From Isoetes taiwanensis (Eukaryota > Streptophyta > Lycopodiopsida > Isoetales > Isoetaceae): a stretch of DNA of 64,000 bases. The stretch covers positions 6,045,821 to 6,109,820 of the forward strand of contig JAJEKV010000057.1 in NCBI GenBank assembly GCA_021234155.1, read 5' to 3'. Made by a program: the position numbers and the translations under genes. A model generated the notes under the pieces. The model did not search any database and was not told where the DNA came from. It saw only the letters and a program-made list of their open reading frames with translations. How positions within the stretch are numbered: position 1 is the first letter of the stretch; every line of letters begins with the position of its first letter. Of the stretch, positions 9,431 to 46,813 are shown piece after piece.

Positions 9431-11818
9431 GTGGAAGTGGAAGAGAAAGAAACAGGTTCCTCGAAATCGAAAAACAGGGAAATTCTCCGTAATCAAGAAA
9501 CCAAATTGCGTAAAAGAATCGGGGCGATAACCGAACTCGATGTAACGGAATGGTGGATGGATCGTTCGTGCACCTTTCACATTGATTTCGGAGGCACCCC
9601 ATCGAATAAAACCGAAATAATCCAACGATTAAAATAGAAGTACCAAATTTAACGGCCGAAAATGCGCGCACAGATTATCATAAAACTCCTTTATTACTAT
9701 ATATAGATATTAATGAACCAGATCAGGATTCCTTAGTGGCAGGTAAGAATATTAGCTTATAAATCTTGTCCTCACATTTTTTTGGTCAAGTAATATTGGG
9801 TTCTTTCAAGCAAGCAAGTGTAGTTGATGCCAAGAGTAACATAATAGTTGTAGAATCTGAAGCTTATGCAGTGAGTGAAAAGGTGGGAGAAGATAGAAAG
9901 GAAAAGAACAAAGCTAATGAAATCAGAGAGCAGAAAGCATCAGGTTGGTGTTTGTGATTGCAGGCTGTCAATTTCTGTAACTATTTCAATATTTGAAAGT
10001 TTTTAACTGTTATATTTATGCAAGGATCTTTCTCTGTAACCTCCTTCAAAAGTGCAAGTTCCTGAAACAGAAGTGTCATCGAGCTCTGTGCCTCCACCTC
10101 TCGTTAGGAATACAAAGTCAACAAAATTTCTCATTATTTTTTACTTCAACGATATTGATGGTAGGTTGTATGATAAGAATGAGCTCATGCTATCAGCTAA
10201 GGAACATGATGTTGTCTTCTGGTGGTTGAACAAGCAGAAGACTATCATTCGACAACAGGTACAAGTCGTACTACAATGAGAAAAATACAATCATTTGTCC
10301 AAACACCTTCGATTCAAGTACAGTTGATGGTCAAATGTTGAATACTACATTAAAGAATTGGCTGGCCGAGTTACTTAGGGGGAACAATCCTAGCTATGTT
10401 GAGAGTAATCCAATGTATAATGTGTACGGCATAGAGACGTCTCAGAAAGCTTTAAAGCTGTTGGATAGATACATGAAAAAAAAAAGTGGTCAAAACATGA
10501 TTATGTAATATTGAGTGCAATGAATAAAACTTTGTTGTTAAGTTTTGGCTTTTTGGTACGGTTGTCTTCAAGTTCTTGTGCTACGGATGCTATTTGCGAA
10601 TACATGTTTGCTTTTGGCATATAGATCCAAGAAGATGGCATCGAGCGGGTTGTCATCAATGGTAAAGCTTCCTTTGATGTACTTGATGGTAGCGAAAAAC
10701 TTGTTACCATTGGAACATCGTAAGCAAGCATTCTCCTGCAAAGTTGATTCTGGGTATAATGATCAGCTGATCGATCTTTACATAGGATAGGTCCTCAAGT
10801 GCTAATTGCTCTTCATTTGAGTCCATTGACTTATATATAATTGCAGGTGCATGAATCAATTTATGGAGGCACATGAGATATCCACTCTCTGTTACTTCTT
10901 CGATCCACTCTTCTACTCGCTTTTGAAAATGAAAGAAGTAACAAAATAGTGGGATTCGTATCGGATATAGATTTTTAAGTCTGTGAATACTTGTTCATTC
11001 CTGCATGTCTTGGCCACCACTGGACTATGTATCTCATTGCTGGTGTTGGGGCAAGATTTGAAATATGTGAGCCAGGCATCTACTGTTTTGGTAGCATGGG
11101 CCTCTTTGCAGGGATAGAGCCGGTGCAAAGGTTTGTAGTTGTGTCTTAATATTTGCCCAACAGATTATTTTTTGCATGCTTAAGGATGTTGGTTTACCTC
11201 TGCAAGTTTGTGAAGAATCTACAAAACCACCTAAAGGTTGACAACAAACTAAAAGTAAAGAAAATCTGTAGAAGGCCAATACGCATGAGATATCCACTCT
11301 CTGTTACTTCTTCGATCCACTCTTCTACTCGTTTTGAACAGAAGAAGTAACAAAATAGTGGGATTCGTATCGGATATAGATTTTTAAGTCTGTGAATACT
11401 TGTTCATTCCTGCATGTCTTGGTCACCACTGGACTATGTATCTCATTGCTGGTGTTGGGGCAAGATCTGAAATATGTGAGCCAGGCATCTACTGTTTTGG
11501 TAGCATGGGCCTCTTTGCAGGGATAGAGCCGGTGCAAAGGTTTGTAGTTGTGTCTTAATATTTGCCCAACAGATTATTTTTTGCATGCTTAAGGATGTTG
11601 GTTTACCTCTGCAAGTTTGTGAAGAATCTACAAAACCACCTAAAGGTTGACAACAAACTAAAAGTAAAGAAAATCTGTAGAAGGCCAATACGTGTGGATG
11701 GATACTCGTGCGGGCCAACGGTCTGTTGCTTTATAAGCAAGTTTTTGGAAGGACTACACAATGGAGTAGACATTATGGCAACCAGAATTCAGCACCCTAT
11801 TTATTACCTTTAGGTGCA
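9431..11818 (+). pseudogene. Ulp1-like (C48) cysteine protease gene, broken
   Basis: Plus-strand pieces suggest a multi-exon gene. An acidic/basic N-terminal frame at 9431-9637 is followed by an exon ending at GTGGCAG|GTAAGAAT near 9743. A frame at 10052-10279 (YFNDIDGRLYDKNELMLSAK) shifts to one ending at TAA near 10508. Next come CEYLFIPACLGHHWTMYLI (about 10980-11045) and, after an insertion, VDGYSCGPTVCCFISKFLEG (about 11693-11755). The HHW motif and the YSCGP motif match the catalytic His and Cys regions of Ulp1/SUMO-type proteases. The Asp normally following HW in this fold is not obvious (EICEPG). In plants such domains often travel with Mutator-like elements. The HW region is present twice because of the 411-bp tandem duplication, which breaks the frame. 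Confidence 0.5.
10874..11695. repeat. 411-bp tandem duplication
   Basis: The block starting ATGAGATATCCACTCTCTG at 10874 restarts at 11285 and runs to about 11695 with only a few base differences. The junction lies at GGCCAATACG. It duplicates the His-motif region of the Ulp1-like protease. Near identity points to a recent event. Confidence 0.95.
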
Positions 11819-12279: not shown

Positions 12280-12493
12280 TTGCAGAACATTTACTTGATG
12301 GTAGGATATTGCCTAGCATCTACTTAATGTTGGAATGGCAAACAATTGCATTGAACTGTTTATATGATGAAAATGTTCAGTTGAAGAATCACAAAGCCAA
12401 GCGTGTAATCCTACATGGAATGCTGTGCAAGTATTTTAGCATATTGCCTGGCATCTAATTAATGTTATGGGACAGCTAATTATTGCTTCAACT
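12280..12493. repeat. Degenerate minisatellite, left part
   Basis: Repeated phrases GCATCTACTTAATGTT, CAAGTATTTTAGCATATTG and GTGTAATCCTACATGGAATG recur here and again, in several units, just beyond the right LTR (29284-29740). The LTR retrotransposon therefore inserted into the middle of a tandem array. Confidence 0.7.
12489..12493. other. Target-site duplication, left copy (CAACT)
   Basis: CAACT directly precedes the left LTR start TGTGACG at 12494 and is repeated exactly at 29284-29288 after the right LTR. A 5-bp duplication is standard for Ty3-type integrases. Confidence 0.95.
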
Positions 12494-14078
12494 TGTGACG
12501 TTCCAAGTATTTATACGGTATACGCATAAATATATTGACACGTCACCCAGTAAAGGTACGCCACCATGGGGTATGGTAACCTAGGGGGTTGACCTAAAAG
12601 GGATTAATTTAGCTATGCTAAATTAATTATTAAAGGAATTAATACCAAATGGGTTTAATTAAGTTAATTGATTACTTGGGAAGGTGCCACCTGGCAAATT
12701 CGATTGGCCAGCATGGGAATGCTAACTTGGGCCCAAGGTGGATCGCTATCCCATTTGACCCCAAAATCGAGCCAGGAGGAGGAGCAGCTGAGCGCCCAAG
12801 TACCTGAAACTGTTGCTGAACACCCCAGTGTTGAAGTTGTTGCTGAAACACCCAGGTTACTGAGAGATGGAGGCGCCTCATGACAATGGATCAAGTAGAA
12901 ACTCGGGTTAGTAGATAATCTAGTTGATATCTCTAAGGCTAGCATTTCAGCTAAGTTCTTTGAGTCTTCCCTGGTTGTTCTTACCTAGGATTAACCCTTC
13001 TTTGATTCTTAGGACTACATTTCAATTATGGATTATGTTTATTATGGATGGATGAATCTATGAAAGTATCTCTGTTAGACTTCCGTAAAGCAGGGATTAG
13101 AGGGGGGTAGAGACCTCTGTGCCATATGCTTTAGTATGCTCCTAGTAGCTCCTTTAATTCCCAGTAGTTGTGGCCTGTGCACAAGAGCCCACCGAGTCAT
13201 GGATGCTTTGGAATTGCTCTGTCAGATAAGGGACGCAGTGGTGAAGTGGGGGTGGGGTCTTGCACGAATATACAAGGCTCCTGGGACTCCTACAGTGGGC
13301 TAGACCTGATAGCCCGTCACGTAGAGGGCCGGGTATGGGTCTGACACTCCCTGGGTGCAGAGGTGTGACCCGTATGGGGCACCCTGTGCTTTGAGTAGAA
13401 TTAGGGGAGTAAGTCAGGTAAGGATGCGGGGGTCACTGATGCGGCACGTATTCTCAAGCTCACCCATGGAACCGCTGCGATCCTGGAAGGGGACGCCTCC
13501 CCGACCTGCCTCATCGGACATGTCTTCATGAAACCTGGAGTAGGCTCGAAGGGTGATACCTTGAGTCTACGTCTCCGGAAAGCTATAGTGATGCCATAGC
13601 ATGATTCGACTCATCTGCAAAGTGTGCACAGGAGGGGCGGATGGAGTGGACAACCCTAGCCATTGTTCTATGCCAGCCAACGCCATGCCAAGATTCGGTC
13701 TGCTGATCTCTTGAGACTTAGCCGTCAGTCGATCCTCACTGGAGTCTGAGCCGGGGTAGAACCATGGGTTTGGGGTGTTTTCTCAAGTATTGAATGTATC
13801 TTCTTTGTTATAATTAGTTGGATAGATGTGCCACCCTTCGTGGTGGTATTTATGATATGATTATGTTGTATGCTAACCTTGTATTCATGCTTCCGCGACA
13901 TAGGAGCCCCATTGAAGGCGTGGGCCGAATGACCCCTCTGTGTCCTTCACTCGAGCATCTTTCCATAGATGGCCCGAGTTAGACGGAGGGCCCTGCTCAT
14001 GGCGAGATGGTTGCCATGGGAGGGGAAAGTCCCCGTATGTATATGGCCGAGTGCCGTATATGTTCTGGGAGCATCACA
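12494..14078 (+). repeat. Left LTR
   Basis: This 1585-bp repeat is matched by 27757-29283. It starts TGTGACGTTCCAAG and ends GGGAGCATCACA. Compared with the right LTR it shows scattered substitutions, many C/T or G/A, and retains about 50 bp near 13371-13425 that the right copy lacks. A short frame at 12668-12883 appears in both LTRs but has no recognisable product. Confidence 0.95.
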
Positions 14079-14079
14079 G

Positions 14080-14092
14080 TGGTATCAGAGCC
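14080..14092 (+). other. Primer binding site (initiator tRNA-Met type)
   Basis: TGGTATCAGAGCC lies one base after the left LTR. It is the standard plant LTR-retrotransposon sequence complementary to the 3' end of tRNA-Met(i). Confidence 0.95.
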
Positions 14093-14279
14093 GTGATTTC
14101 GGTTGCTCGAAATCATAGCACTGACCAAACCCTAACTCGTTAGTTCGGTAGTTAGCTGGGAGATTAAATTAGTGGGACTGTTTAACTTTTTGATGTTTGG
14201 TTTTGTGCTAGGTTGATGTAATACATTGTAAGTCTTAAACGTTTAGGGCGACTGGAGGACCCAAGTTTGGGAGGACTAT

Positions 14280-16387
14280 AACTTTTTGTGGTATCTATGG
14301 ATGAGAACTCCATTATGAATGTTCAGAGAATCCTTGGAGAATTTGGTGAGGCTTCAGGATGTAAAATAAACCATGCCAAGTCAGCAATTCAAGCAAGGGA
14401 TCAAGGAAAGGGAGAGGTGATGGCTGTAACCATGGGATGTAAGTATAACTCTCCTAACACTAGCTCAAAAATCCTGGGAATCCCATTTGCAATCAGAAGC
14501 AATGCTTCAGATTTATGGGGAAGTATAATTGAAAAATTCTACAAAAAGGTTGACACTCTGAACTCTAAATATCTCTCTAAGAATGGAAGGGCAGTCATAG
14601 CTAATTTTATGATTTCTTCTTCTCATGTGTATCAATCTTCAGTTATTCTTGCTCCAAAAAAGATTGCTAACAAATTGCAGGGTATTATTGGTAGATTTAT
14701 TGCCTGTGGGCAAAACAGGAGATGCTGGCACCCGGTCTCAATGAAAGAATGCTGCAAATCTAAGAGTAATGGAGGACTGGGAACAATCAATATTGAGAAG
14801 CAGGGGATGGCCTTGGCTACCAAGTACTTTTATAGGGCCTGTTATAATTCCATCAAGCACCCTATTTCCATCCTGATTAGGCATTATATTGGAAAATGCC
14901 ATCCTTATGGGTGGAGATCTTTAAAGATGGAGCTTCCCCATTCTATCTTTTTTCCATTTACTGTCCCTACATCCACTCCAGGTATTATCAAGAAGTGGAT
15001 CAAGGCTTGGGATCAAATTAAGGGAATGTATACTTGGAAAGAAGGGCTTTCCATGGATCAAACCATCTTCTGGAATCCAGCTGTCCTGCTCAACAATCCT
15101 AACCTCTGCCTGGCCTGCCACTTTCCTGATCAAGCCAAGTTATGGAAGAGTAAGGGAATCATTTTTATAAGGGATCTTTTTGATGCTAATGGAATTATAC
15201 CTTTTGACAGATCCACTTTGGTTAATGAAGGAGTGCAGACCAGAACCCTCTATGATAATGTTCTTAATGCCATCATGAATAATTACTGGACTCATGAGGA
15301 TAACTCTTGGATAAATGAAGGAAAGGAAGGTTATGCTGTTAGAAGAGCATATAAGTATCTCATGAGGGGAGAAGGAGTTACTATTCATATAAAATGGGAT
15401 GTTCAGCCGGAAAGATGCATCAGGAATTTGAATTTCATGTGGAAAAGTCCCATTAACCCGAAGATTAAGTCATTCATCTGGCAACTTTGGCATAGAGCCT
15501 TGGCTACTAACTCGAAAAGATATAAATTATCTATGGCCAATTCTGATATCTGTGAAAGATGCCTTGGAGCAAAGGAGGATGAAAATCATCTTTTTAGAGG
15601 ATGCCTTTGGTCAGAGTGGATTTTAGAGCTTGCCTCGGAAATTCTGGGATATGATCTCATTCATCTAAGTGAGAAGGATTTTTTCATGCCAGAGAATCCC
15701 AAGGATTGGAGAATCTTTGTCCTCCTCTGGAGGATATGGAAGGGCAAGAATTCTTTCATCTTTAATGGTGAAATTGTTCCTCCCGAAGGAATAATCAAAC
15801 AGTTCCAATTTGATGTTAAGTGGATTCAAGAGATTAATGGATGACTTCATTATTGCAGGTACTCTATTTCTGCTGGTGCGCAAACTCAAGTGGAGGAAGA
15901 TGGACCTGAATGCGAACAACGAATGGATCAAGATATTTGGAGCAGCCAGTGTTCTGGAGCACATGGAGAGATGCCAGTGTGGATGCTGCTGTGATCAGAA
16001 CTACAATATAAGGAGAGAGCTAATTTGTCAAGCAAAGGACAGCAGGGGCCGGTTCAACATGGCCAAGGCAAAAGCATGCATGTGCATCTACTGCACATTC
16101 CACGAGAAGACGAAGGGGAAGGCAAGGAAAACCAGGAACTATCACCTGAGATCCTATCACTGAACAATCTATCTATTCTGATGACAGAAACTTTTTTCAG
16201 CGAGATATTTTTAATATTTAGTTTGTCCTAATATAAACAAGTTTTAGGATGATCCTTGTTTTCTAAAACTGGATGTTTATGGATCTCCTTTCTTTTTTAG
16301 GGTTCCTTCTCCCTTGAAAAAGAAGTTTTTGTAAACCCCTTTTTAATATATATAGTAGCCTTCAATTAAAAAAAAAACTTTTTGTGG
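14280..16387 (+). mobile_element. Nested 5'-truncated L1-type LINE with 12-bp target duplication
   Basis: AACTTTTTGTGG occurs at 14280-14291 and again at 16376-16387, and the second copy is preceded by a run of A (16367-16376). Between them lies the 3' part of a LINE on the plus strand: the last part of reverse transcriptase, a zinc-binding C-terminal region, a 3' untranslated region and a poly(A) tail. The endonuclease and the catalytic reverse transcriptase block are missing, as in target-primed insertions that stop early. The insertion splits the untranslated leader of the LTR retrotransposon, so it is younger than that element. Confidence 0.9.
14297..15844 (+). CDS. LINE ORF2 C-terminal part (end of reverse transcriptase plus zf-RVT domain)
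   Basis: An open frame of about 515 codons to TGA at 15842-15844. It begins inside the reverse transcriptase (FGEASGCKINHAKS, then SKILGIPFA, and GRAVIANFMISSSHVYQSS), which is typical of plant L1-type elements just after the catalytic core. The C-terminal region carries PKIKSFIWQLWHRALATNS and CERCLGAKEDENHLFRGC, the zf-RVT-like Cys/His cluster. The first ATG is fortuitous because the LINE is 5'-truncated and the frame enters from the target duplication. No internal stop is present, so the insertion is young. A second frame, 15810-16163, overlaps its end and is Cys/Lys-rich (CQCGCCCDQN); it may be a shifted continuation. No functional protein is expected without the catalytic YxDD block. Confidence 0.85.
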   Translation: MDENSIMNVQRILGEFGEASGCKINHAKSAIQARDQGKGEVMAVTMGCKYNSPNTSSKILGIPFAIRSNASDLWGSIIEKFYKKVDTLNSKYLSKNGRAVIANFMISSSHVYQSSVILAPKKIANKLQGIIGRFIACGQNRRCWHPVSMKECCKSKSNGGLGTINIEKQGMALATKYFYRACYNSIKHPISILIRHYIGKCHPYGWRSLKMELPHSIFFPFTVPTSTPGIIKKWIKAWDQIKGMYTWKEGLSMDQTIFWNPAVLLNNPNLCLACHFPDQAKLWKSKGIIFIRDLFDANGIIPFDRSTLVNEGVQTRTLYDNVLNAIMNNYWTHEDNSWINEGKEGYAVRRAYKYLMRGEGVTIHIKWDVQPERCIRNLNFMWKSPINPKIKSFIWQLWHRALATNSKRYKLSMANSDICERCLGAKEDENHLFRGCLWSEWILELASEILGYDLIHLSEKDFFMPENPKDWRIFVLLWRIWKGKNSFIFNGEIVPPEGIIKQFQFDVKWIQEING

Positions 16388-16849
16388 GTAGCTCAGATGA
16401 AGGCGAAAGTGGTTCCAGTGGATCGGGCATACCCCAAATACCCTAGGAGGGTCATCAGCAGGCGGAAGGGGTCAAGGAGGGGCCCCGAAAGTCAACTCGG
16501 GCGCCGCTTGCTTTTCATCGGCTTAAAATTGTGGTAGGAACGCATATAATGCCGTCGGCGCCCGACCGTATAATCACGCATATTTCCGCCGTATAAATAT
16601 TAAAAAAAAAAAATTAACAAGAAATTTTTTAAAAATTTAAAGGTTAGGCGGCCGTTACTTTTTTTACTCCTCCCCTGTTTTACAGCGCCTCCGCCCGCTA
16701 GGTCTGACGTCCGCCATAGCTACCGGACCCGACCCTGCCCTTTCACCTTGGTTTTTCTCTACCGCCTTCTCTACCCCTAGCGCCTCCCCTATCGTCTTCC
16801 TAATCGCAAGCGCCCACTTCCTGCCGCCCTAGACCCCCGCGCCATAGTT
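16388..16849 (+). other. Retrotransposon leader, second part
   Basis: Untranslated sequence between the LINE insertion and the first accessory ORF. It becomes C-rich just before the ATG at 16850 (CTACCGCC, CGCCCACTTCC), like a plant 5' untranslated region. No other feature seen. Confidence 0.5.
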
Positions 16850-18098
16850 ATGGCCACCACTAAGAGTACCATGGACCCCACTACCCTCACCATAGCCCAG
16901 ATTTATGCCTTAATCGCACAGCATATGGCTACTGACCCTGCCTTGATTGATATACTTCTGGATGAGTTGGTACTCAGATTTGCTGACGACGTTAGGATAC
17001 CCTATCCAATATATCATTACTCGGAGCAGTTTTTGGTTAGGTTGAATCTCCGACAGCTTCCTTATACCATGGCCGAGCAACCTGACTTGGTCATGATGTT
17101 GATTAAATTTTACCCTCCTGAATGTGAGGAACACTCTGAGGAGGAGGCCATAAGAACAGAGGCCGACCGTATCCGGAACTTGGCCAAGGAGGATGACCGC
17201 AGGGAGTTAGAACGAGCCGATACGGCGGCTCGAGGACGAGAGTATAGGTATTTAGGAGATGGAGTCACCGTCATTGATGGCAGGGCAATCGAGCTTCCCC
17301 CATTTGAGTGGCATGAAGCTTCCCAGAGCTTCATGTGGGGAGAGATTCTTGACATCAGTCTGGATTATTTGACGACGATCCAGATTGATATGACCTAGCG
17401 ACCCAACCGATACCACGCTGAACTCCTTCGCCGCATTGTTGAACGACGGTACGCTGAGGTTGAAGCCAACCTCCAGAGAGCTCGAGAGTTCCGGGAGGAA
17501 CAAGAAAGACTCCAACGGGAATGAGAGGAAAAGGCCCGACAGGAACAGCAGGACCAGCAGGATAATGGGGGACCAGAGACTGAGCAGGGGCCAAACCAGA
17601 CGGACAGGACGCCCATTAAACACCGGAGAAAAGCCGTAGCCCATAAGTCCGGCAGCCAGTACAAGGAGAAGTTGAAGGTTGTCGGAGCTATTGGGAAGAA
17701 CGCGAGTTCCAGCCGGAGGCAGGAGCGGGTGGATGCTTCCCGGCCCCATCCTGTCGTAGGGGGCAAGACGATACCACCGCACAGGGGCCCGACTCCCAAA
17801 CCTGCTCCACCAAAGAAGCCCCACCGGTTCAGACCCGGCACCGTGGCCTTACGGGAGATCCGTAAGTTCTAGAAGACCACAGAACTTCTGATACGGAAGC
17901 TGCCTTTTCAAAGTTTGGTACGGGAGATAGCCCAAGAATTCAAAACCGACCTCCGCTTCTAGACTTTTGCCATTCTAGCACTTCAAGAGGCTGCAGAAGC
18001 CTACTTGGTGGCACTTTTTGGTGATGCAAATCTTTGCAGTCACTATAATGCCAAAGGATTTGGCCCTGGCCCGCAGGATTCGGGGAGAACGTCCTTAG
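16850..18098 (+). pseudogene. Accessory ORF 1: unknown N-terminal region fused in frame to a histone H3 core
   Basis: From the ATG at 16850 one frame is intact for 182 codons (MATTKSTMDPTTLTIAQIYA onward) to TAG 17396-17398. The same frame continues past it through a charged, coiled-coil-like segment (RAREFREEQERLQRE), a basic/proline-rich linker (PTPKPAPPKKPHRF), and the H3 core. Further stops lie at 17522-17524 (TGA), 17870-17872 and 17960-17962 (TAG), and a small deletion near 18045-18060 shifts the last H3 helix into another frame ending at TAG 18096-18098. The N-terminal part is acidic with predicted helices and matches no family I know; it is not an ordinary gag. The three TAGs could be decayed CAG codons and the TGA a decayed CGA. 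The position between primer site and gag indicates that the retrotransposon expressed it. Confidence 0.85.
17813..18098 (+). other. Histone H3 core domain inside accessory ORF 1
   Basis: The frame reads KKPHRFRPGTVALREIRKF, then KTTELLIRKLPFQSLVREI and AQEFKTDLRF, then FAILALQEAAEAYLVALFGD and ANLCSHYNAK, and in a shifted frame LALARRIRGERP before the stop. This covers H3 from about K36 to the C-terminus: alphaN, alpha1, loop 1, alpha2, loop 2 and alpha3. About 17 bp are missing around the RVTIMP segment, which causes the frameshift. Loop 1 has canonical length, so this is not a CENH3. Phe at the position of residue 41 matches plant H3.1; Leu at 90 matches H3.3. The N-terminal tail with K4, K9 and K27 is absent, replaced by the retrotransposon-specific region. 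Two in-frame TAGs interrupt it. Confidence 0.93.
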
Positions 18099-18300
18099 TG
18101 GGTTTTGAGAATGTCAGCGTTGTAACTATTTTTGTTATATTAAATAGAAATCTACATTTTGTCCTTGTGTTATGTACGAAAATGCTGACGTCAGCATAAA
18201 TAAATCACTTAAAAAAAAAAAGGGGTTAAAAGGATCTCTAGGGTTTCATTTTCAATTGTCCATATCTGTTTATCTTCGTCCCTCCTCTCTTCCAGCGCCC

Positions 18301-19697
18301 ATGGCCGCCATCAATCTACTTGCATGGTACCAGGATGGAGAGCATTGGGATCCACAGGTGCCCTTTGACCTTTTACAGCCCTTTCTATGCCAGCGCCTCG
18401 ACCTCATCTCTAATATGCAGTGGCACCCAGATTATGCCGGATTCCTACAGTTTTACACAGAGGAGATGCTCCCTCTGTGTATTCCTTTCGGGGAACCTCC
18501 CCAGCTGTACCTAGAACGGGATGTAGTCCGAGAAATGCTTGGGGGTGACACCCACGCATATGATGTGCTCAAGGGCAAACTTAGATGGAGTAAACAGCCG
18601 CCAGTTGTTCAGCACCAGGGGCGACAATATCTTGAAGTTGCCTTTGCCCTAGCCATCCTCATGGATCAGTATGTTGAGGATGAGACATTGCCGGCCGAGA
18701 AAGGCAAACTTCCCGAGTCCTCCGATGAGGAAGAAGATGAGCACATAGGCATGGGTGACTTCTTCCGTTGGAAGCAGTTGGCAGAGGAGATGCCACCATG
18801 TCGGGAACAAGCTGCACGCTTGTCCGGGTTAGATGCCCTTCCAGTTTTGTATCACCAAGGGCAAGAGTATCTTCTTTTGGATGATATCATCTGGACTTAT
18901 CACATGGTGGCCGGTTTAAGCGCCGACGCAAGGACCATGTGCTCTATGAGTTAGCGGAGTACTGTATGGATGATTTCATTGACTTTACTCCTATTGACCT
19001 TCCCCAGGAAGTATAGCAGCTACTCCAATTTCATCAGGAGACCATAGAGCCGGTCGAAACTTTGTTACGGCTTCGGGAACTGGTGTTACAGGATCTGCCA
19101 TCTCAGCCTTCACCGGATGCCTTTATAGCCATGGGGCCTCATGTCCCAAATATTAATATGATCGAAGTTCCCTCCGGTTCAGACGAGGAGGGAGAGGATC
19201 TATACCATAACCCTGCTCATTTGAAGGAAGAGCAGGAGGAACTCAAGGAAGAAGAAGTCCCTATGGACCTAGATAAGGAGGTTGCCACGTCGGAGACCCC
19301 CAGGGGAAGGTGTTGGGGAATCACCTCACCCTTCTTCCTATCAGCTTTTCGGCAGGGGCAGGTCCTTTTTGTAGCCCGGGACTTAGGGCCAGAGGCCGAG
19401 GCTTCATGGTGGAACCTCCGTGCTCTTTCCACATTGGCAGGGCACAAGAAGCTTCCCTACCGCATGCTTACTCACGTACTCGTTCGAAGGGAGCTTGCCC
19501 TCACTGCATTGGGGCAGGATATTGCACCATGGATGAGTATGAAACTCCTTACGGCGGCCCTATTGGCTGCCACCTACCCGCCAGAGGTTGTCTCCATTGC
19601 GGCCGCCACAGTAGACCCAGGGGTGACTTTGTTACGTCATCGACCGCCGCCCCCACCTCCTACGTCTATGGATCAGGATGCGGGGCCTACCTCCTAG
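18301..19697 (+). pseudogene. Accessory ORF 2 of the retrotransposon, unknown function
   Basis: ATG at 18301 (MAAINLLAWYQDGEHWDPQV) opens a frame to about 18912. A one-base shift near there moves to the frame that continues (RRRKDHVLYELAEYCMDDF) through one TAG at 19014-19016 to the stop at 19695-19697, about 465 codons in all. It is acidic, with Glu/Asp-rich stretches (SSDEEEDEH; EEEVPMDLDKEV) and a Pro run near the end (RPPPPPPTS). Two related internal segments are visible: PPVVQHQGRQYLEVAFALAI and LPVLYHQGQEYLLLDDIIW. No known domain is recognised. It lies between the histone-bearing ORF and ORF 3, all upstream of gag on the same strand, so it was probably carried as retrotransposon cargo or a structural accessory. 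Confidence 0.65.
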
Positions 19698-19936
19698 ACC
19701 TCCTAGTATATATTGTATGAGTATAGCCTTTGGGCAACTCAAGCATGTATAATTTTTGATTTGGCATTTTTCTTAGCCAGCATACCATATATGTGCCATT
19801 TTCTTATGATTTATGATTATTGTATCGATGAATACAATTAAATTGTTTTTTTTTCCCATGATACTTCCTTGTATCTTTTAGAGATTAGAGTATAAGAAAT
19901 TGTCCACCTTGTATATTTATTCTTGCCGTCTTGCAG

Positions 19937-20397
19937 ACGATGAGCTCGTAGAATTCGAGGAAAGAATCACCAATGACATACGAAGGGACGATCCAGGACC
20001 TCCCGACCAAGACTACGGCCAACGATATGGGGAGTACTCGGACCGGGATGAGGATTATGAAGCAGGGGAACCCGTGCAAGAGGGAGAACCCTATGACTCA
20101 GCTAAAGGCTTGGAGATAGTCAACATTCTCAGAGAATGGGCCTTTGAGCATTTAAAACAAACTCTTCGTCGAACCTGGGATTACTGGGAAATGACGAGGC
20201 ATGAAGCTTATGCCGACGCCAATGACCATTTATGGCAGATCTTTTATGCACTACGAGATCTCTTTAATCTACTCCTCATCAGTCCTACCTTAGACTACCA
20301 GCACGTTATTATCCAGGCATGGGCTCGCTACAAGGTAGTTAGGGCAGTACGGGAGAGCGTCCTCTACTCTATCCTGTACCCTTTTGCGCAGCCCTAG
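19937..20397 (+). CDS. Accessory ORF 3 of the retrotransposon, unknown function (possible spliced exon)
   Basis: An open frame of about 153 codons ending TAG 20395-20397. There is no early in-frame ATG. Instead the frame is preceded by a pyrimidine-rich TTCTTGCCGTCTTGCAG at 19920-19936, a good splice acceptor, so it may be an exon joined to an upstream ORF. The first third is very acidic (DDPGPPDQDYGQRYGEYSDR); the rest is helical and aromatic-rich (REWAFEHLKQTLRRTWDYW; DLFNLLLISPTLDYQHVII). No stop interrupts it, unlike its neighbours. I recognise no family. An AT-rich stretch with AATAATAAAG (20536-20545) follows before gag. Confidence 0.55.
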
Positions 20398-20654
20398 GCC
20401 TGACCTCCTCAGTTTCTTTTTGTGGTTAAGTATGAGTTGTTAAAGAATTGCCCAATGTATAGGCGCTACCTCTGTACTGTATAACCTTCCGTTTTGTTAA
20501 AGATATATGTCCGATGTAATAATGTACTTTGACTTAATAATAAAGCTCTTTTCTTTCATTCTCTTGTATAGTCTTTATTATTACTTCCTAGCACTACTTA
20601 AAATGATTTTCTCTGTGACACGTGGTATCACAATAATTCTCCTTATACCTTCTT

Positions 20655-21886
20655 ATGGTCAATATAGACGGTGCACATAACGCCTCATGGCAGACACCCT
20701 CGAATGCTAGCAGACTAACGCCTGAACAGGAACTCCTGTTGATCAAGCGGCAGTTAGTAGAGCTGCAAGCTTATGTGTTGAACGCCAACCCACCGCAGCA
20801 TATGCAGGAGGATGGGCCAGAGTTACCTCCGTTACCGCCAAGTCCACCACCACAGCAGCCACCTGCACCTGAACCAGGCCCTGTACCCGCACAAAGGAGG
20901 CACCGTTCCAAACGTCGTCGAAGTTCCTCTACGGATAGTGCCACATCCTCACAATCAGCCACTTCTGTGTCCTCTGAGTCGTCTGTATCATCTGGTGACC
21001 ATGTAAAGCGCCGGGACAAGGAGTACCATAAGACGGTTGATACGGCCATAACCAATATATGGAAAAATAGGAAATTGGCCCAGTTTGATGGGAAATCTAG
21101 AGGCGGGCTGAATGCAGAGTCCTGGTTGGACGAGATGAAGGAGTTTGGAAAATCCTATGGCATGACAGAAAAGGATACAGGAAAAGTTGCCACCACAAAC
21201 CTTCACAGAGCCGGCCATTATTTGGTGGAAGGGCTATGCCAGAGCCAAGCATCTGGACAGAAGCAGGTGCAAGTTCAAAAAGTTTGCCAAAGCTTTTAAG
21301 TCGCATTATGTGCCTCGTGCGCACAAATGCCAACAAATTGAGCTTTTTTACCGAGTGTTAGAGCGGAAGGGTATGTCGATTCAGGCCTACACCGATGAAT
21401 TCATAAACTTGAGGCTATATGTGCCGTGAATGAATGAAAAAGAGGGCGGTGGAGGGCTATATTGAAGGGTTGGCCCCATCAATTAAACGAATGGTTAAGG
21501 CCATAGACCAAATCGATTCTTTGAGGCTGAGGCTAAGGCATTGAGCCTTGAAGAGGGGCGCACCACGAAATTAGTACCGGCCCATGCCTCTTACTCGCAA
21601 ACCCACGCCCGTACACACACCTTACAAGGGCCGCTCACCGAAGTCCGGGCCCTCTCGTGAGAACTCTAACGACCGCCAGGAAAAGAAAGTCACCTTCAAC
21701 ATGCCCGACAAACCGAACAATGTCGGTAAGGAAGTTCGGAACCTCTTACAGTCCATTCCCAAAGAGGTCCGAGAGCAGCTCCGCAGAGATAAAGCATGTT
21801 ACAGGTGTATGCGGCCCGGGCACTTCATGCAGAATTGCCCTTATGTCACACAGACTGCCCAGCTGGCCATGGCCGACCTCGATTAG
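20655..21886 (+). pseudogene. gag: gag: capsid-like region and CCHC zinc knuckle
   Basis: ATG at 20655 (MVNIDGAHNASWQTPSNASR). A helical start is followed by a Pro-rich segment (LPPLPPSPPPQQPPAPEPG) and a Ser/Arg-rich basic patch. The Retrotrans_gag-like domain starts near FDGKSRGGLNAESWLDEM and continues, after a frameshift near 21200, as TEPAIIWWKGYARA and QQIELFYRVLERKGMSIQAY. It is interrupted by TGA at 21427-21429 and further shifts near 21430-21580. The zinc knuckle CYRCMRPGHFMQNCP (codons 21797-21838) is a perfect CX2CX4HX4C. The frame stops at TAG 21884-21886. Gag would package element RNA; this copy cannot make an intact one. Confidence 0.85.
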
Positions 21887-22416
21887 GACAATCTCGAGTC
21901 TACACCACCGGTCGAGGAGGAGGCTCCCGAGTATATTCACGGTGCGTCTCATATCCTTGCAGCCATAGAAACCGGCAATGCTGAAAGTCAGCCTGCTGTT
22001 ATCTCCACCATAGGTCAAGTAGACAGTAAGCCTTTCATAATTCTTATGGATACGGGAAGTACACATAATTTTGCTTCTCCTAGAATGGCCCATGTATTGC
22101 AGCTTGAGACTTTGAGGTCCCGACCGAAACCTGTCACTTTAGCCAGTGGAAAAATCAGACATACTCATGGCCGTCACGTTAACCTTAAAATGTAGCTGCC
22201 AAGTGCACCAGTTGCATTGGGTGCCGAGTTAATGGACATTGGCAAATATGATCTGATTGTTGGTATGGAATTCTTGGCATCTGCAAAAGCCAATATCGAC
22301 TGCGAAAAGCGGGAGGTTACCTTCAACGCAGCTAATGGAGCCCGCATAACTATAAAAGGTGATCCATTAAACCCGGTATTAATGGGCCCCGGTATTAATG
22401 GGCCCTTTTCCCCATT
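21887..22416 (+). pseudogene. pol: pol: aspartic protease region
   Basis: It continues the zinc-knuckle frame past a TAG. The active-site motif ILMDTGSTHNFASP has its DTGS codons at 22049-22060, and the flap/C-terminal signature YDLIVGMEFLA (about 22249-22281) fits retropepsins of Ty3 elements. A TAG at 22193-22195 interrupts it. A 16-bp tandem duplication (CCGGTATTAATGGGCC repeated near 22376-22407) shifts the frame just before reverse transcriptase. Confidence 0.9.
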
Positions 22417-23550
22417 ATGCAGTCTATGTCCATCAGGCAGTTAAGTAAGGCTATACGCAAGGATAAGCTACTTTGTGTCATCAGACTTGCATCCATTGAG
22501 TCAGATGCTAAACAGAAGCAAGTAGTCGATGCATTGCCAGAAAGCATTGCTAATCTTCTTAGGGAATTTAGTGATCTCTTTCCAGACGAGATCCAGAAAC
22601 TTCCTCCATTCAGAGGGGTAGAATGTGAGATAGCTTTGGAACCAGGTACTAAGCCTACCAGTAAGGCCCCATACCCTATGAGTCCCCCAGAATTGGCAGA
22701 GCTTAAGAAACAACTTCAGGAGCTATTAAACCTAGGCTTCATTCGGCCTAGTGTTTCACCGTTTGGCGCTCCTATCCTTTTTGTTAAGAAGAAGGATGGC
22801 TCCTTGAGGATGTGTATTGACTATCGCCAGCTCAATAAGCATACCATCAAGAATCGCTATGCGTTGCCCAGAGCAGACGACCTTATGGATCAGTTGCAAG
22901 GGGCCAGGTACTTCTCAAAGATTGACTTACGCTCTGGATATCATCAGATAAGAATTAAAGAGGAGGACATCCATAAATCTGCCTTTCGCACTAGGTATGG
23001 GCATTATGAATTTACCGTTATGCCTTTTGGATTAACTAATACCCCCACAACTTTCATGCGATTGATGAATGATGTCTTCCGACAATACTTGGATGATTTT
23101 GTTGTTATTTTCTTTGACGACATTCTCATCTATAGTAAGACTCTAGAGGAGCATGAGAAACATCTTCGGTTGGCCCTACAAAAGCTAAGACGTCACCAGC
23201 TCTTTGCCAAGTTCTCTAAGTGCAAGTTTGCCACTCCGAAGGTGGATTACTTGGGACATGTCATTTCAGCAGAGGGATTTGCTACAGATCCAGCAAAGAT
23301 AGAGGCAGTGAGAGATTGGCCCATTCCAGGTAATGTTTCAGAGGTCCGAAGTTTCTTAGGATTGGCAGGATATTATCGGAAATTTGTTAAAGATTTTGCA
23401 AAGATTGCAGCACCGCTCACTGATCTTACAAAGCATGAGAAAGTGAAGGATTGGATTGAGCATTGGAAAGCAAAGGTCCAGGGAAGTTTTCAGAAACTTA
23501 AGGATGCTTTAACGTCAGCACCAGTCCTCCCGAAAAGGATAAACTCATAG
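22417..23550 (+). pseudogene. pol: pol: reverse transcriptase
   Basis: An open frame of 377 codons. In order: [71 protein letters not shown], the catalytic block [12 protein letters not shown] (about 23101-23136), and [18 protein letters not shown] with [13 protein letters not shown]. All are in the standard Ty3 order. FFDD replaces the usual FIDD or YxDD; the two Asp remain. The frame ends at 23550 through a small frameshift, after which RNase H continues in another frame. The domain is nearly complete, but the polyprotein is broken on both sides. Confidence 0.93.
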
Positions 23551-23865
23551 CAACGGATGCCAGTAAGATTGCTACCGGTGGAGTCCTAATGTAAGAGGGG
23601 AGGGTTATTGCCTATGATTCGAAGAAAATGAACGAGACTAAGCAGTGATACCCTACCCATGACCAGGAGTTGTTAGCCATTGTCCGCGCTCTGCGTATAT
23701 GGAGACACTACCTTCTTGGTAGAAGATTTCAACTTGATACAGATCATCAGAGTCTCCATTATCTATCCACCCAGCCGAATATCAACCTCCGTCAGAGAAG
23801 ATGGATGGAATTTCTGGAAGAGTATGATTTAGATTATATATAAGCCTGGGAAGCACAATGTGGTT
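23530..23865 (+). pseudogene. pol: pol: RNase H region, broken
   Basis: Short frames read ATDASKIATGGVL (first catalytic Asp), [20 protein letters not shown] (Glu), and [16 protein letters not shown] (Asp), the Ty3-type RNase H order. A TAA near 23592, a TGA near 23647 and a shift near 23840 interrupt it. It joins the integrase frame at NVVADALSRHP. Confidence 0.85.
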
Positions 23866-25443
23866 GCGGATGCGTTGTCACGCCATCCCTTGGTAACCCG
23901 AACCCATTGTAATGCAATTTCCACACTCACTAGTGAGTTTGGGAAACAGATAGAACAGACCTTGGCCACAGATCCCGAGTTCCGTGATGTTTGGGATAGT
24001 TTGGCTAAGGAGGCACGCACAGATAAAGAACGTGAAGCTTTCCGTTCATATAAGAAAGAGGGCAACTTGTTATATTACAAGGATAAGTTGTGTGTACCTG
24101 AGACTTCAGGAGTACGTAAGCTAATTCTCCATGACACGCACAACAGCCCTATAGCTGGACATGCAGGTTTTATGAAGACCTACTTTAAGATCCGCTCCAG
24201 TTATTTTTGGCCTTCCATGAAGAAGGACATTGCCAGATACATTAAGCAGTGTCAAGTGTGTCAACAAACCAAGGCTGAGCAACTAAGGATTCCTGGAGAG
24301 TTGCAACCTCTGGATGTGCCCAACGCTAAGTGGGAAGTGATAACCATGGATTTCATTGTGGGCCTTCCACGTACTCTCCGTGGATATGATGCATTGATGG
24401 TAGTGGTTGACAAATTGTCGAAAATGGCTCATTTCTTGCCATGTCGTACCACGGATACAGCCTTCGATACCGCTTTGCTATTTGCAAAGGAAATCTTCAG
24501 ATTGCACGGAATGCCGCGAGTTATTGTATCCGACAGGGATCCCAAATTCGTCAGTGCATTCTGGAAAGATTTCTTTGCCACCATCCAAACCAAGCTTGCT
24601 ATGAGTACGGCATATCATCCTCAGACGGATGGTCAGACAGAGCGTACCAATCGGATTATAGAGGATATGCTACGAAGTTATGTGTGGAGCAAGCAATCAC
24701 AATGGGCTGACTATATTTATCTGGTCGAATTTGCCTATAACAGCATGAAACAGGAGTCTTCCAGAATGTCTCCCTTTATGATAAATTATGGTTATCAATG
24801 CCTTACTCCAGACACATGGCATAATCCCGTTTCTAAAGTGGAGGTCTCTCAACAACTCCTCTTGGAGATGCAAGCTTTGGTTGAAGAAGTTCGTGGTTAC
24901 TTATTGGCTGCACGCAGTCGTCAGAAGAGTGTAGCAGATAAGCACAGAACCCCACGAATCTTCCAGGTGGGCGAATCAGTTTGGCTTAAGATTAAGGTAA
25001 AACAAGCCAAGCTTAAGATTGGTAACTGCAAGAAGCTGGCACCCGGATGGGCTGGGCCGTTCAAAATCATTGAACGTGTTGGAGAACAGGCATATCGCTT
25101 GGATTTGCCACCCCGCTTGAAGATCCACAAGGTCTTCCACGTGAGTCTCTTGAAGCAACACACCCCGGATCCAGAGGAGATATTGGATATGCCCACCCTT
25201 CTTGAAATGACAGAAGAGCATCTAGATATAGTGCCTGAAGCTCTTCTTGATCGAGCCTATAAGCAGACCAGAAGGAGTCAAATGCTACAATACTCGGTTA
25301 AGTGGAAACACTTGCCAGCTGAGGATGCTACGTGGGTGATGAAGATAGACCTTGAGAAGCACTATCCGGACTTCATGCGAGAATCTCAGGGCCGCACCAT
25401 CAACGATGCTATCAACCCCGCTCACGTAAGCTTGAAGGCTTGA
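23860..25443 (+). CDS. pol: pol: integrase with C-terminal chromodomain (intact frame)
   Basis: An uninterrupted 527-codon frame; its first ATG is inside the end of RNase H and is not a natural start. The zinc-binding HHCC (LHDTHNSPIAGHAGF and CQVCQQTK) lies at residues about 91-134. The catalytic triad is Asp164 (TMDFIVGLP), Asp225 (VSDRDPKF) and Glu261 (TDGQTERTNR), with 35 residues between the last two. A GPY/F-type module (WAGPFKIIERVGEQAYRLDL) near 390-410 is followed by a chromodomain-like end (LLDRAYKQTRRS, YSVKWKHLPAEDATWV). Chromodomains steer integration toward modified histone H3, notable here because the same element encodes an H3 core. Being stop-free, it contrasts with the broken gag and accessory ORFs. 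Confidence 0.93.
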   Translation: MVADALSRHPLVTRTHCNAISTLTSEFGKQIEQTLATDPEFRDVWDSLAKEARTDKEREAFRSYKKEGNLLYYKDKLCVPETSGVRKLILHDTHNSPIAGHAGFMKTYFKIRSSYFWPSMKKDIARYIKQCQVCQQTKAEQLRIPGELQPLDVPNAKWEVITMDFIVGLPRTLRGYDALMVVVDKLSKMAHFLPCRTTDTAFDTALLFAKEIFRLHGMPRVIVSDRDPKFVSAFWKDFFATIQTKLAMSTAYHPQTDGQTERTNRIIEDMLRSYVWSKQSQWADYIYLVEFAYNSMKQESSRMSPFMINYGYQCLTPDTWHNPVSKVEVSQQLLLEMQALVEEVRGYLLAARSRQKSVADKHRTPRIFQVGESVWLKIKVKQAKLKIGNCKKLAPGWAGPFKIIERVGEQAYRLDLPPRLKIHKVFHVSLLKQHTPDPEEILDMPTLLEMTEEHLDIVPEALLDRAYKQTRRSQMLQYSVKWKHLPAEDATWVMKIDLEKHYPDFMRESQGRTINDAINPAHVSLKA

Positions 25444-25692
25444 TTCGCCGAGAATCATGCAGTAGAGGGATAGATGCATCGTGGTTGATAATAGTTACCG
25501 ATGATGAGATCACCTTCGTGTTCTCTAGGACGTGGTGTATTGTCAATGTGGGCATGACCGCGGATTGCTTGGAAAGCATGTAGTTGATAGGCCGCGTTCA
25601 TCTCGGCTACAATGGGAACTTGACCGGGTTTTTCTTTTATTTCTTATAGGGGGTGGTCCCTTCAACCACAACCTAATTATCTTATCTATATA
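25444..25692 (+). other. Retrotransposon 3' untranslated region, first part
   Basis: The sequence after the integrase stop, ending where the Helitron begins at 25693. No frame or signal recognised. Confidence 0.5.
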
Positions 25693-27429
25693 CTAGTAAT
25701 GGTGCCCAGCGTTGCTGGGCATAAATTAGGAATCTGTGCGGACAAAAACCTATTCATTCTACCATTTTTTCATTCTCTCTTTTTTTCTTTTTTTAATCCC
25801 CTTGTCCCTCCCTTTACCTTCCCTTTCCCCTTCCCCTTTTTCCCTTTCTCTTTTTTTTTTGATGGGCTTTTTTCCTTTCTTTTTTATCTTTCCTCAGCTC
25901 TTTCTATTTTTCCCTTTGTTTTTTCCCTTTTGCTCACCTTTTTATGTGCCCTTTTTCTTCCTTTCCCCACCCTCTTCCTCTTGATCACGTGCCCTTTTTT
26001 CCATCTCTTTTCCCATTTCCCTCTCCCCTTTTCCTCGTGCCCCTTTTCAACTTTACATTCCCTTTTCTGCTTCCCTTGTCCTTTCAACTTTACATTCCCT
26101 TTTCATCCTTTCCCCACCCTTTCGCTTTTCCCCGTGCCTTTTTTCCCTTTCCTTTCCCTTTATCCCTTTCCCTTTCCCTTTTCATATGCCTCTTTCTATT
26201 CCCTTTTCTCAACTTTTTTTATGTGCCTCTTTTCCTTCTTTCCCCATCCTCCTCCCCCTTTTTGCCTTTCCAATTTCTCCTTTCCTGTTTTTCTTGTTAC
26301 TTTTCCCTTTCCCATGCTCTTTTTCCCTTTCTTTTTCCCCTTTACTCACCCTTTTCTTCCTCCCTTTTGTCCCAGGCCCTTTTCCCCTTCCTCCTTTTCT
26401 GTTCCTTGTTCCTTACCCTTTGCCTCTTCTACTTTTCCACCACCCTTTTCCATTTTTTTCCTCTCCCTTTTTCTAGATGCTCTTTTTGCTTCACTTTTCC
26501 TCTTGCTTCACCCTTTCTCTCTTCCCGTTTTTTCCACGCCCTTTCCCTTTTCCTCTTTTCCTCGTGCCCATTTCCCAGATTCTCTTTTGCCCTTTCCTCC
26601 CTCTCTTTTTCTTTTTCCTTTCCATTTCACTTTTCCCATGCGCTTTGTTTGTCCCCTTCTTCCCACCTTTTCTTACCTTACTTTCTTACCCTTTTCTCGG
26701 TGCCCTTTTACCTCTCCTTTTCTGTCCCCTTTTCTATTTCCTTTGCCTTTCCTTTTCCCATCTTTCCTTTTTCATCCTTTCTAATTCCTTTTTCGTCCTT
26801 CCTTCCTTTACTTCTTTTCACTTCATTTCTTTTTCACTTTTACCCTTTTTACCTTTTTCCTTCTTTCCTTCTTTTTTTCATTTTCCCTCTTTCCTTTTCT
26901 ATTTTTCCTTTTCCATTTTTTTTCTTGTTTTTGTTTCCCTTTATCTTTATTTCCCTCTTCCTTTTTTCCCTTACCCTTTTCCTTTTTCCTTTTCCTATTT
27001 CCCTTTTTAACTATCGGATTGAGTGAATTTTGGCCATCGGTCATTTTATCTTCCCCTTTTCCCTTTTCTCCTTCTCTTTTTGTTTTCCCCTTCCTTACCC
27101 TTTTTTGTTCCTTTTCCTTCTTCCCCCTTTTTGTTTTCTATTTTTCCTTTTCCATTTTTTATTTTTTTATATTCTTATTTCTCCTTTTCCCTTTTCCCTT
27201 TTCCCTTTTGTCCTTCCTCTCTCACTTTTCCTTTTCCTTCTCTCCTTTTCCCTTCCCCTTTTCCTTATCGTTCGACTGTCGGATTGAGTTAATCATGTTG
27301 GAGCCATGGTCAAGATGAAACTTTAGTTGAAGACACGCACACATCATCTCCACCGTTGGTCAATCAAATCCTTGATCGTCCGATCTAGGGCTCCATTGAA
27401 GACACACGCTATAACATTATAATATAAGA
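25693..27429 (-). mobile_element. Non-autonomous Helitron nested in the retrotransposon
   Basis: Read on the minus strand, it begins TCTTATATTATAATG at 27429 (host A before it) and ends at 25693 with the hairpin GCCCAGCAACGCTGGGC, an ACCATTA spacer and CTAG, then host T. This is the Helitron pattern: 5' TC, 3' hairpin about 10 nt before CTRR, inserted between A and T without target duplication. The body has no Rep/helicase frame; it is almost entirely a purine-rich tract on this strand. Related 3' ends occur at 32113 and 46788. The 5' end is less certain than the 3' end. Confidence 0.75.
25760..27275. repeat. 1.5-kb polypyrimidine/polypurine tract
   Basis: The plus strand is almost pure T and C, in irregular CCCTTTTCC-like units with occasional GTGCCC interruptions and two breaks carrying a CGGATTGAGT phrase near 27015 and 27280. 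Long frames on the plus strand translate to Phe/Pro/Leu/Ser runs and are composition artefacts. Such tracts can form triplex DNA. Confidence 0.9.
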
Positions 27430-27743
27430 TACTGACGTATTGACATGTGCAGGCCAGTAAGCAGTACGTGACCTGCCCATGTATAGAGGGTTGCTGATGG
27501 CCCGACTTTTCCAGTTTTATCTTGTCTACATGTCTACCTTTTTGTTACTGTGATGTTGCGAATGGACTTCGGTCCTTAAACACTTTTCTTGTGATAATCA
27601 TGTGAAATGCACCTTCGTGCTTAAACTATCTTATCTTTTAAGTTGTAATGGTATTACCTTCGGAAATAAGGAATTACTTTACTCCTTTATGTATAATCGC
27701 TTACATTCTAACTAACCCTAATGCTGAGGACAGCATTGTTTCT
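27430..27743 (+). other. Retrotransposon 3' untranslated region, second part
   Basis: The sequence between the Helitron and the polypurine tract. It contains short AT-rich stretches and no frame of note. Confidence 0.5.
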
Positions 27744-27756: not shown

Positions 27757-29283
27757 TGTGACGTTCCAAGTATTTATACGGTATACATATAAATATATTG
27801 ATACGTCACCCAGTAAAGGTACGCTTACCATGGGGTATGGTAACCTAGGGGGTTGACCTAAAAGGGATTAATTTAGCTATGCTAAATTAATTATTAAAGG
27901 AATTAATACCAAATGGGGTTTAATTGATTACTTGGAAAAAGGTGCCACCTGGCCAAATTCGATTGGCCAGCATGGGAATGCTAACTTGGGCCATCAAGGT
28001 GGATCACTATCCCATTTGACCCCAAAATCGAGCCAGGAGGAGGAGCAGCTGAGCGCCCAAGTACCTGAAACTGTTGCTGAACACCCCAGTGTTGAAGTTG
28101 TTGCTGAAACACCCAGGTTACTGAGAGATGGAGGCGCCTCATGACAATGGATCAAGTAGAAACTCGGGTTAGTAGATAATCTAGTTGATATCTCTAAGGC
28201 TAGCATTTCAGTTAAGTTCTTTGAGTCTTCCCTGGTCGTTCTTACCTAGGATTAACCCTTCTTTGGTTCTTAGGACTACATTTCAATTATGGATTATGTT
28301 TATTATGGATGGATGAATCTATGAAAGTATCTCTGTTAGACTTCCGTAAAGCAATTAGAGGGGGGTAGAGACCTCTGTGCCATATGCTTTAGTATGCTCC
28401 TAGTAGCTCCTTTAATTCCCAGTAGTTGCGGCCTGTGCACAAGAGCCCACCGAGTCATGGATGCTTTGGAATTGCTCTGCATCAGATAAGGGACGCAGTG
28501 GTGAAGTGGGGGTGGGGTCTTGCACGAACATACAAGGCTCCTGGGACTCCTACAGTGGGCTAGACCTGATAGCCGGTCACGTAGAGGGCCGGGTATGGGT
28601 CTGATACTCCCTGGGTGCAGAGGTGTGATCGGGTAAGGATGCGGGGGTCGCTGATGCGGCACGTATTCTCTAGCTCACCCATGGAACCGCTACGATCCTG
28701 GAAGGGGACGCTTCCCCGACCTGCCTCATCGGACAGGTCTTCATGAAACCTGGAGTAGGCTCGAAGGGTGATACCTTGAGTCTACATCTCCGGAAGGCTA
28801 TAGTGATGCCATAGCATGATTCGACTCATCTGCAAAGTGTGCACAGGAGGGGCGGATGGAGTGGCAGCCATTGTTCTATGCCAGCCAACGCCATGCCAAG
28901 ATTCGGTCTGCTGATCTCTTGAGTAGCTGTCAGTCGATCCTCACTGGAGTCTGAGCCGGGGTAGAACCATGGGTTTGGGGTGTTTTCTCAAGTATTGAAT
29001 GTATCTTCTCTGTTATTATTAGTTGGATAGATGTGCCACCCTTCGTGGTGGTATTTATGATATGATTATGTTGTATGCTAACCTTGTATTCACGCTTCCG
29101 CGACATAGGAGCCCCATTGAAGGCATGGGCCGAATGACCCCTCTGTGTCCTTCACTCGAGCATCTTTCCATAGATGGCCCGAGTTAGACGGAGGGCCCTG
29201 CTCATGGCGAGATGGTTGCCATGGGAGGGGAAAGTCCCCGTATGTATACGGCCGAGTGCCGTATATGTTCTGGGAGCGTCACA
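27757..29283 (+). repeat. Right LTR
   Basis: This 1527-bp repeat is the partner of 12494-14078. It ends GGGAGCGTCACA, followed by the CAACT target duplication at 29284-29288. It lacks about 50 bp present in the left LTR near the GGTAAGGATGCGGG phrase. High similarity to the left LTR suggests a fairly recent insertion. Confidence 0.95.
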
Positions 29284-46788: not shown

Positions 46789-46813
46789 TTATTATTATGT
46801 TGAGTCTGAATGT

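Follow-up and report, generated by a model that had tools for sequence, protein, structure and literature searches.

Ty3 chromoviruses are long terminal repeat (LTR) retrotransposons that share paired LTRs, a primer binding site (PBS), a reverse transcriptase (RT) placed before the integrase, and a chromodomain on the integrase. Those of non-seed plants fall into Galahad, Mordred and other clades (PMC2864245, in the sections used here). An element with these common features occupies positions 12494-29283 of a 64,000-nucleotide stretch of the Isoetes taiwanensis genome (contig JAJEKV010000057.1, positions 6,045,821 to 6,109,820; hereafter the window). It differs from the chromoviruses in those sections in having about 4 kb of extra sequence with three open reading frames (ORFs) before the gag-like region, one of which is a fusion to histone H3. 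This reading frame, ORF-A, is a genuine gene of a Ty3 chromovirus family and encodes an H3-variant-like protein. The fusion lies inside LTR-bounded elements, is present in several subfamilies and is under strong purifying selection.

Single H3 genes are known from DNA viruses, including the Manila clam xenomavirus, DSLPV1, sylvanvirus and others (PMC9145170, section 9); their H3 fold is 73-87% identical to a eukaryotic H3, and three of six have extended tails (PMC9145170). In the present case, by contrast, H3 is carried by a chromosomal element that moves by reverse transcription, another domain stands in place of the entire normal tail, and the many copies of the element make selection measurable. 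The bracovirus protein CvBV-H4 is likewise a parasite core histone with an extended N-terminus, and is reported in host nucleosomes in the portions of PMC9145170 and PMC5423620 consulted; it is an H4 carried in wasp-borne particles and its effect was shown experimentally, whereas that of the element H3 is predicted. Bs1 of maize is, like the Isoetes element, a plant LTR element with captured host gene segments. In the part of PMC13317346 that describes them, these are pieces of genes for ATPase, xylan endohydrolase and glucanase, each of them incomplete, whereas here a complete H3 core is conserved across subfamilies. A first-pass annotation of the window, made from its letters, had known of no plant LTR retrotransposon carrying H3, and the literature searched agrees: among titles and the openings of abstracts, with most subscription papers outside the coverage, there was no earlier report of a retrotransposon-encoded histone. 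The word 'histone' is absent from a 2026 review of gene capture by plant transposons (PMC13317346, in the text available), and the word 'retrotransposon' from a 2022 review of viral histones (PMC9145170).

Translation of the frame from the ATG at 16850 gave an H3 core, as the first-pass annotation had described. ORF-A is on the strand of the element, past the LTR and PBS and ahead of the gag-like region, and so has the position of a retrotransposon gene that had been claimed for it; it starts about 0.7 kb past the LTR when a nested long interspersed nuclear element (LINE) is discounted. The protein is about 410-420 amino acids long and consists of an acidic N-terminal domain of about 180 residues (N-domain), a basic linker and the H3 core at the C-terminus. 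A 75-residue stretch of the window copy (KKPHRF...NLC) matches histone H3 chains in the PDB with an E-value of 1.8e-36, and Pfam Histone (PF00125) is matched with an E-value of 1.7e-40 in the open copy L021. The best PDB match of the H3 core is H3.3 (6.8e-52), and the fold fits H3 over other histones. Clear H3 homology begins at about K36; most of the residues aligned ahead of that point differ from H3, and the normal tail (residues 1-35) is absent.

The window copy of the element is dead. A single frame, despite stops, had been read to the end of H3, which holds as far as C110; the terminal TIMPKDLALARRIRGERP (18042-18098) is out of frame in the window copy. Counted from K36 through the stop, the H3 part spans 286 nt, compared with 303 nt (100 codons and a stop) in 32 of 33 open copies from elsewhere in the genome, and 17 nt are therefore missing after C110. 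In addition to this deletion, in-frame stops occur at four places (17396, 17522, 17870 and 17960).

The net charge of the N-domain ranges from -11 to -19 in the 33 open copies, and that of the linker, counted from residue 226 on, from +9 to +16 in 32 of them; L030 gave no value, as the script misplaced the start of its H3. A basic block around VA.K.GSQYK, for example KHRRKSVARKSGSQYKEKL, was picked up by one pattern in 23 of the 33 and may be a nuclear signal. The N-domain had no Pfam match, a search of database proteins 229-728 amino acids long with residues 1-215 found no homolog at E<=0.01, and scans of viral contigs confirmed no relative of either the N-domain or the RT. Structure prediction for the N-domain alone failed (pLDDT 38.7). 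When the whole ORF-A protein was used as the query, none of the best 120 of 3284 hits covered more than 39% of it, and the matches listed for the H3 part (nine sequences read) were ordinary, tandem or odd H3s.

The 1.66 Gb host genome was searched with both parts of ORF-A, and the resulting first-look candidates (5930 for the H3 part, 3299 for the N-domain) are counts of hits rather than of verified copies. For the H3 part, 150 hits were scored, the window included; all had E<1e-36, and 144 were without stops when counted by eye. For the N-domain, the 150 scored and listed hits had 75-100% identity, and 34 of the H3 hits coincide by coordinates with entries of that list in one open frame. Forty copies were fetched, of which L017-L050 were chosen for one open frame across both parts and L051-L056 were not so chosen; a single open frame runs through the N-domain and H3 core in 34 of the 40. 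In L034, the first ATG taken falls inside the N-domain, and in L026 the frame continues beyond the usual C-terminus of H3. Since the fused frame is open in 34 copies other than that of the window (picked for openness), chance is excluded as its origin, and the proposal that the N-terminal region and H3 were one protein is upheld. A chance resemblance to H3 is also ruled out, by the PDB match and the genome-wide copies.

Probes made from pieces of the window occur in the same order across the 40 copies: the N-domain and H3 in all 40, the 3' end of the 5' LTR in 38, the PBS with the leader in 37, and ORF-B in 36. The frequencies of the LTR end and the PBS leader rule out a host gene family unrelated to transposons. 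The exact motif TGGTATCAGAGC, which we take to be a PBS for initiator tRNA-Met, lies at most 1 kb upstream of ORF-A in 32 of the 40. In the open copies L021 and L028, both LTRs were located, together with the target site duplications (TSDs) GCTGT and TAAGG; these are thus LTR-bounded copies with an uninterrupted H3 frame, the kind of support to which the annotation had pointed. For L018 and L036, the 4 kb fetched did not include a second LTR. RT gave no match at its expected place in five of 12 copies; copies without an RT match or 3' LTR may be shifted, rearranged or deleted.

A second sample comprised 20 copies that were ranked by the N-domain and absent from the top 150 H3 hits. Eight of these have H3 at full length in a single frame (interrupted by one stop in L080), in six it is broken by frameshifts or a short deletion, five have been reduced by deletion, insertion or rearrangement to a piece of H3 or an inverted piece, and one is interrupted before H3. 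The other 19 of the 20 therefore keep H3 or part of it, and no ancestor type lacking H3 was seen among these 60 copies, all of which were found through ORF-A. The prospect, raised by the annotation as grounds for abandoning its proposal, that full-length copies lack H3 consequently gained no support. L089 and L090 (C1063, about 5 kb apart) are neighbouring rearranged copies in which an LTR end and an inverted H3 piece stand at the start of the H3 part. In L091, a deletion fuses the first 27 residues of the H3 part straight to ORF-B.

Selection was estimated as the ratio of nonsynonymous to synonymous divergence (dN/dS) by the Nei-Gojobori method (NG86), with pairs dropped if dS was not >0.1 or was saturated. 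L049 was missed by the script pattern and left out, which leaves 33 open copies and 528 possible pairs. The H3 part had a mean dN of 0.018, a mean dS of 0.757 and a ratio of 0.028 (499 pairs). The ratio was 0.072 for the N-domain (374 pairs) and 0.26 for the linker (521 pairs), the least constrained part. As a benchmark, RT gave 0.065 (21 pairs) in the seven of 12 copies where it was found, and 11 of the same 12 copies gave 0.032 for H3 (55 pairs), 0.074 for the N-domain (42 pairs) and 0.30 for the linker (53 pairs), the RT and H3 figures of this comparison thus coming from different subsets. The H3 part is under strong purifying selection, its ratio being below 1, the result that the annotation had named as support, both in the 33 open copies and in the second sample (0.10-0.26).

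Substitutions in the H3 part were scored against fern H3 (Adiantum P0217 and P0225). Y54F, S86T, S87F, V89I, G102A, E105G, T107A, I124L and Q125A are fixed in all 33 copies, D77 is replaced by E or Q in all 33, and A135 by P in 31. In the second sample, with L084 and L088 set aside, positions 54, 86, 87, 89, 102, 107, 124, 125 and 135 are invariant in all 12-14 readable copies, so that position 135 also shows a single residue throughout; G occupies position 105 in 11 of 12 copies, and position 77 is not fixed, with E in 11 of 13. R42, T45, R49, R63, K64, R69, R72, R83, H113, K115, R116, D123, L126 and R129, presumably contacts with DNA and between H3 and H3', are invariant in the 33 copies; the window copy has one private change, R69S. 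An identity as CenH3, for which we take a lengthened loop 1 and replacement of T107 as the marks, was rejected: T107A is present in all 33 copies, which is insufficient alone, and the alignment to H3 is gapless through loop 1, which is not longer. Adiantum H3 has F41, S87 and L90; in the element, position 41 is F or Y, position 87 is F and position 90 is L. The alpha-2 chaperone site, described in PMC9145170, reads FAIL in the element and SAVL in fern H3; three named viral H3s read SAIL or TAIL (PMC9145170), so that V89I recurs in them.

In a tree of ORF-A, L017-L019 and L034 split from the others with a support of 100, a fourth group (L027-L032, L038-L048 and L050) stands on a branch of 0.25 with a support of 100, and the nodes among the remaining copies are weak. 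All tree groups carry H3 with the same changes, and these observations point to a single old capture of H3 as the simplest reading. That the element had captured H3 and put it to use, as first suggested, is supported by the many copies, by the presence of H3 in all tree groups and by the purifying selection.

The element in the window has paired LTRs with a short TSD, RT followed by integrase, and a chromodomain at the C-terminus of the integrase, and is on these grounds a Ty3 chromovirus. Its ends were placed by self-BLAST and comparison of the flanks, which carry the 5-bp TSD CAACT on both sides. The alignment of the two LTRs contains 1489 identities, 30 substitutions in 1519 ungapped positions (25 of them transitions) and 74 gap columns; with so few differences, the window copy is fairly recent. 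The parts of the element are as follows.

12494..14078, plus strand: 5' LTR (self-BLAST), preceded by the TSD CAACT at 12489-12493
14079..14291, plus strand: PBS TGGTATCAGAGC (at 14080) and start of the 5' leader
16388..16849, plus strand: remainder of the leader, between the nested LINE and ORF-A (segment 16389-16849 matched in 38 of 40 copies)
16850..17395, plus strand: acidic N-domain of ORF-A, open in the window copy
17396..17812, plus strand: basic linker of ORF-A, with stops at 17396 and 17522 in the window copy
17813..18098, plus strand: histone H3 core of ORF-A, K36 to the C-terminus, with stops at 17870 and 17960 and the 17-nt gap after C110
18099..18300, plus strand: spacer with the conserved palindrome GCTGACGTCAGC (18184) and an A11 run (18211-18221)
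18301..19694, plus strand: ORF-B, unknown protein of about 466 amino acids where open, frameshifted in the window copy
19900..20397, plus strand: ORF-C, unknown
20655..21886, plus strand: gag-like region with a zinc-knuckle-like motif, frameshifted, named gag from its position and motif
21887..23550, plus strand: protease-like stretch, read by motif only, and RT
23860..25443, plus strand: integrase (H2C2, rve, SH3) with a C-terminal chromodomain (Pfam)
27757..29283, plus strand: 3' LTR (self-BLAST), followed by the TSD CAACT at 29284-29288

In Pfam, RVT_1 was matched within 22417-23550 (E 2.2e-38), and the integrase matched Integrase_H2C2 (1.4e-20) and SH3_Tf2-1 (8.2e-21); rve scored 32.4 bits, slightly below its cut-off of 32.6, and Chromo (PF00385) 29.8 bits against a cut-off of 25.1 (5.6e-7). 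No Pfam gag match was found for 20655-21299 of the gag-like region. ORF-B and ORF-C are two more unknown accessory ORFs ahead of that region; ORF-B had no Pfam match in the open copies L023 and L028 and no PDB match in L023. At 18184-18233 and in related copies, either TTAAAAGG or TTTAAAAG comes after the palindrome GCTGACGTCAGC, some 75-115 nt ahead of ORF-B. The palindrome is kept in 27 of the 40 copies and, together with the motif that follows it, may be an internal promoter.

The LINE nested between the PBS and ORF-A (approximately 14292-16377) is 5'-truncated, has a zf-RVT domain, ends in an A-run and is flanked by the 12-nt direct repeat AACTTTTTGTGG at 14280 and 16376. Between the integrase and the 3' LTR, about 1.5 kb (25800-27290) is 88% pyrimidine. 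Elsewhere in the window, a tandem duplication of about 410 bp (98% identical) occupies 10872-11692, and a large segment with a minus-strand ORF is duplicated at 32385-34721 and 46789-49611, where pieces of the two copies are 92-97% identical; a third, partial copy lies near 50958-51820.

The element-encoded H3-like histone probably works by entering chromatin. Its core would pair with host H4, and host chaperones would place it into nucleosomes by way of the altered alpha-2 recognition site. Element DNA, whether new cDNA or fresh insertions, would thereby receive nucleosomes with an H3 whose K4/K9/K27 tail has been replaced by the element's own domain, and silencing based on H3K9 and H3K27 would be left with less to write on. 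To have a tail-swapped H3 on element DNA, evading tail-based silencing, is tentatively the likeliest purpose of the protein. A target for it exists, because retroviral DNA acquires nucleosomes and the H3K9me3 mark while still unintegrated (PMC8621569, in the part consulted), and plant retrotransposon DNA may be handled in the same way. It is also conceivable that the element builds its own chromatin, with its DNA or its entry sites held in nucleosomes that contain a private H3 free of the silencing tail, which would leave defence based on H3K9 and H3K27 nothing to mark.

Several observations weigh against an H3-like histone that works by entering chromatin in this way. The changes at positions 86, 87 and 89, at or next to the chaperone site, might block deposition rather than redirect it. 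The motif ARKS is found upstream of the core in eight of the 33 open copies (L020, L021, L022, L024, L025, L033, L034 and L037), so the replacement tail is not clearly beyond modification. As five of 12 copies gave no RT match where one was expected, some of the copies with H3 may be incomplete. Openness of the frame and high protein similarity were, moreover, the criteria by which the 33 copies were selected; this lowers dN, and the second sample was taken for that reason. Its H3 ratio was 0.10 for the eight clean copies (24 pairs), 0.14 for 12 copies (62 pairs; L084 and L088, which have several frameshifts in H3, omitted), and 0.26 for 14 copies (87 pairs) with these two badly frameshifted copies included. 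Regarding the motif itself, ARKS resembles the context of K9 and K27 in H3, and AHKS or AHKA stands in its place in 18 of the 33.

An alternative, which appears unlikely, is that ORF-A serves targeting: the H3 core would anchor in host nucleosomes, and the N-domain would recruit the pre-integration complex or a host factor there, acting beside or instead of the integrase chromodomain. It is consistent with this that the N-domain is itself strongly constrained and is joined to H3 in each of the 34 open copies (which were picked for this fusion), and that the integrase chromodomain makes chromatin targeting habitual in the family of the element. However, the N-domain contains no domain known to Pfam and defied structure prediction, and ORF-A does not have the H3 tail that chromodomains read.

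It is improbable that the protein interferes with the host as a dominant negative, sequestering H4 or H3-H4 chaperones and weakening heterochromatin assembly generally. The acidic N-domain beside a histone core would resemble a chaperone-substrate pair, and seven of the ten positions changed in all 33 copies fall at residues 77-107, which we assume to be the region, from loop 1 to alpha-2, on which the choice of chaperone depends. However, the residues taken above as DNA contacts are kept as strictly as the rest, and sequestration would not need them.

Packaging, in which the H3 core would condense or protect the cDNA or RNA of the element in virus-like particles, is very doubtful. ORF-A precedes the gag-like region in the same element, and packaging of the viral genome is discussed as a role of marseillevirus histones (PMC9145170, in the section used), but a lone H3 cannot form a nucleosome without H4, H2A and H2B, and the near-complete conservation of the H3 core points to pairing with host H4.

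A one-off, meaningless H3 retrocopy in a single element is already refuted and has next to no probability: an A11 run does begin 112 nt past the H3 stop and is preceded by an AATAAA whose first base lies 12 nt ahead of the run, and A-runs of at least 10 are rare (eight on the same strand of the 64 kb), but the best exact match for a target duplication is an unconvincing 7 nt, the spacer occurs in other copies beside GCTGACGTCAGC with A-runs of differing length or none, and the fusion is found in many copies and all tree groups under purifying selection. The A11 run was accordingly rejected as the poly(A) of a retrocopy, being part of an element spacer of variable A length that is common to the copies, and the second outcome that the annotation had set against its own proposal, a retrocopy with its own poly(A) or target duplication, was not borne out.

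Silencing of transposons depends largely on marks on the H3 tail. An element-encoded H3 core that is under selection and carries another tail suggests that silencing is countered directly at the level of the nucleosome. If the finding is true, this would be, to our knowledge, the first transposable element known to encode a histone. Reverse-transcribing elements would then join the parasites that carry core histones, which are so far DNA viruses in PMC9145170, and the family would offer a natural, tractable system in which to study a contest between parasite and host over chromatin. With thousands of candidate copies, the element could shape the chromatin of a whole plant genome.
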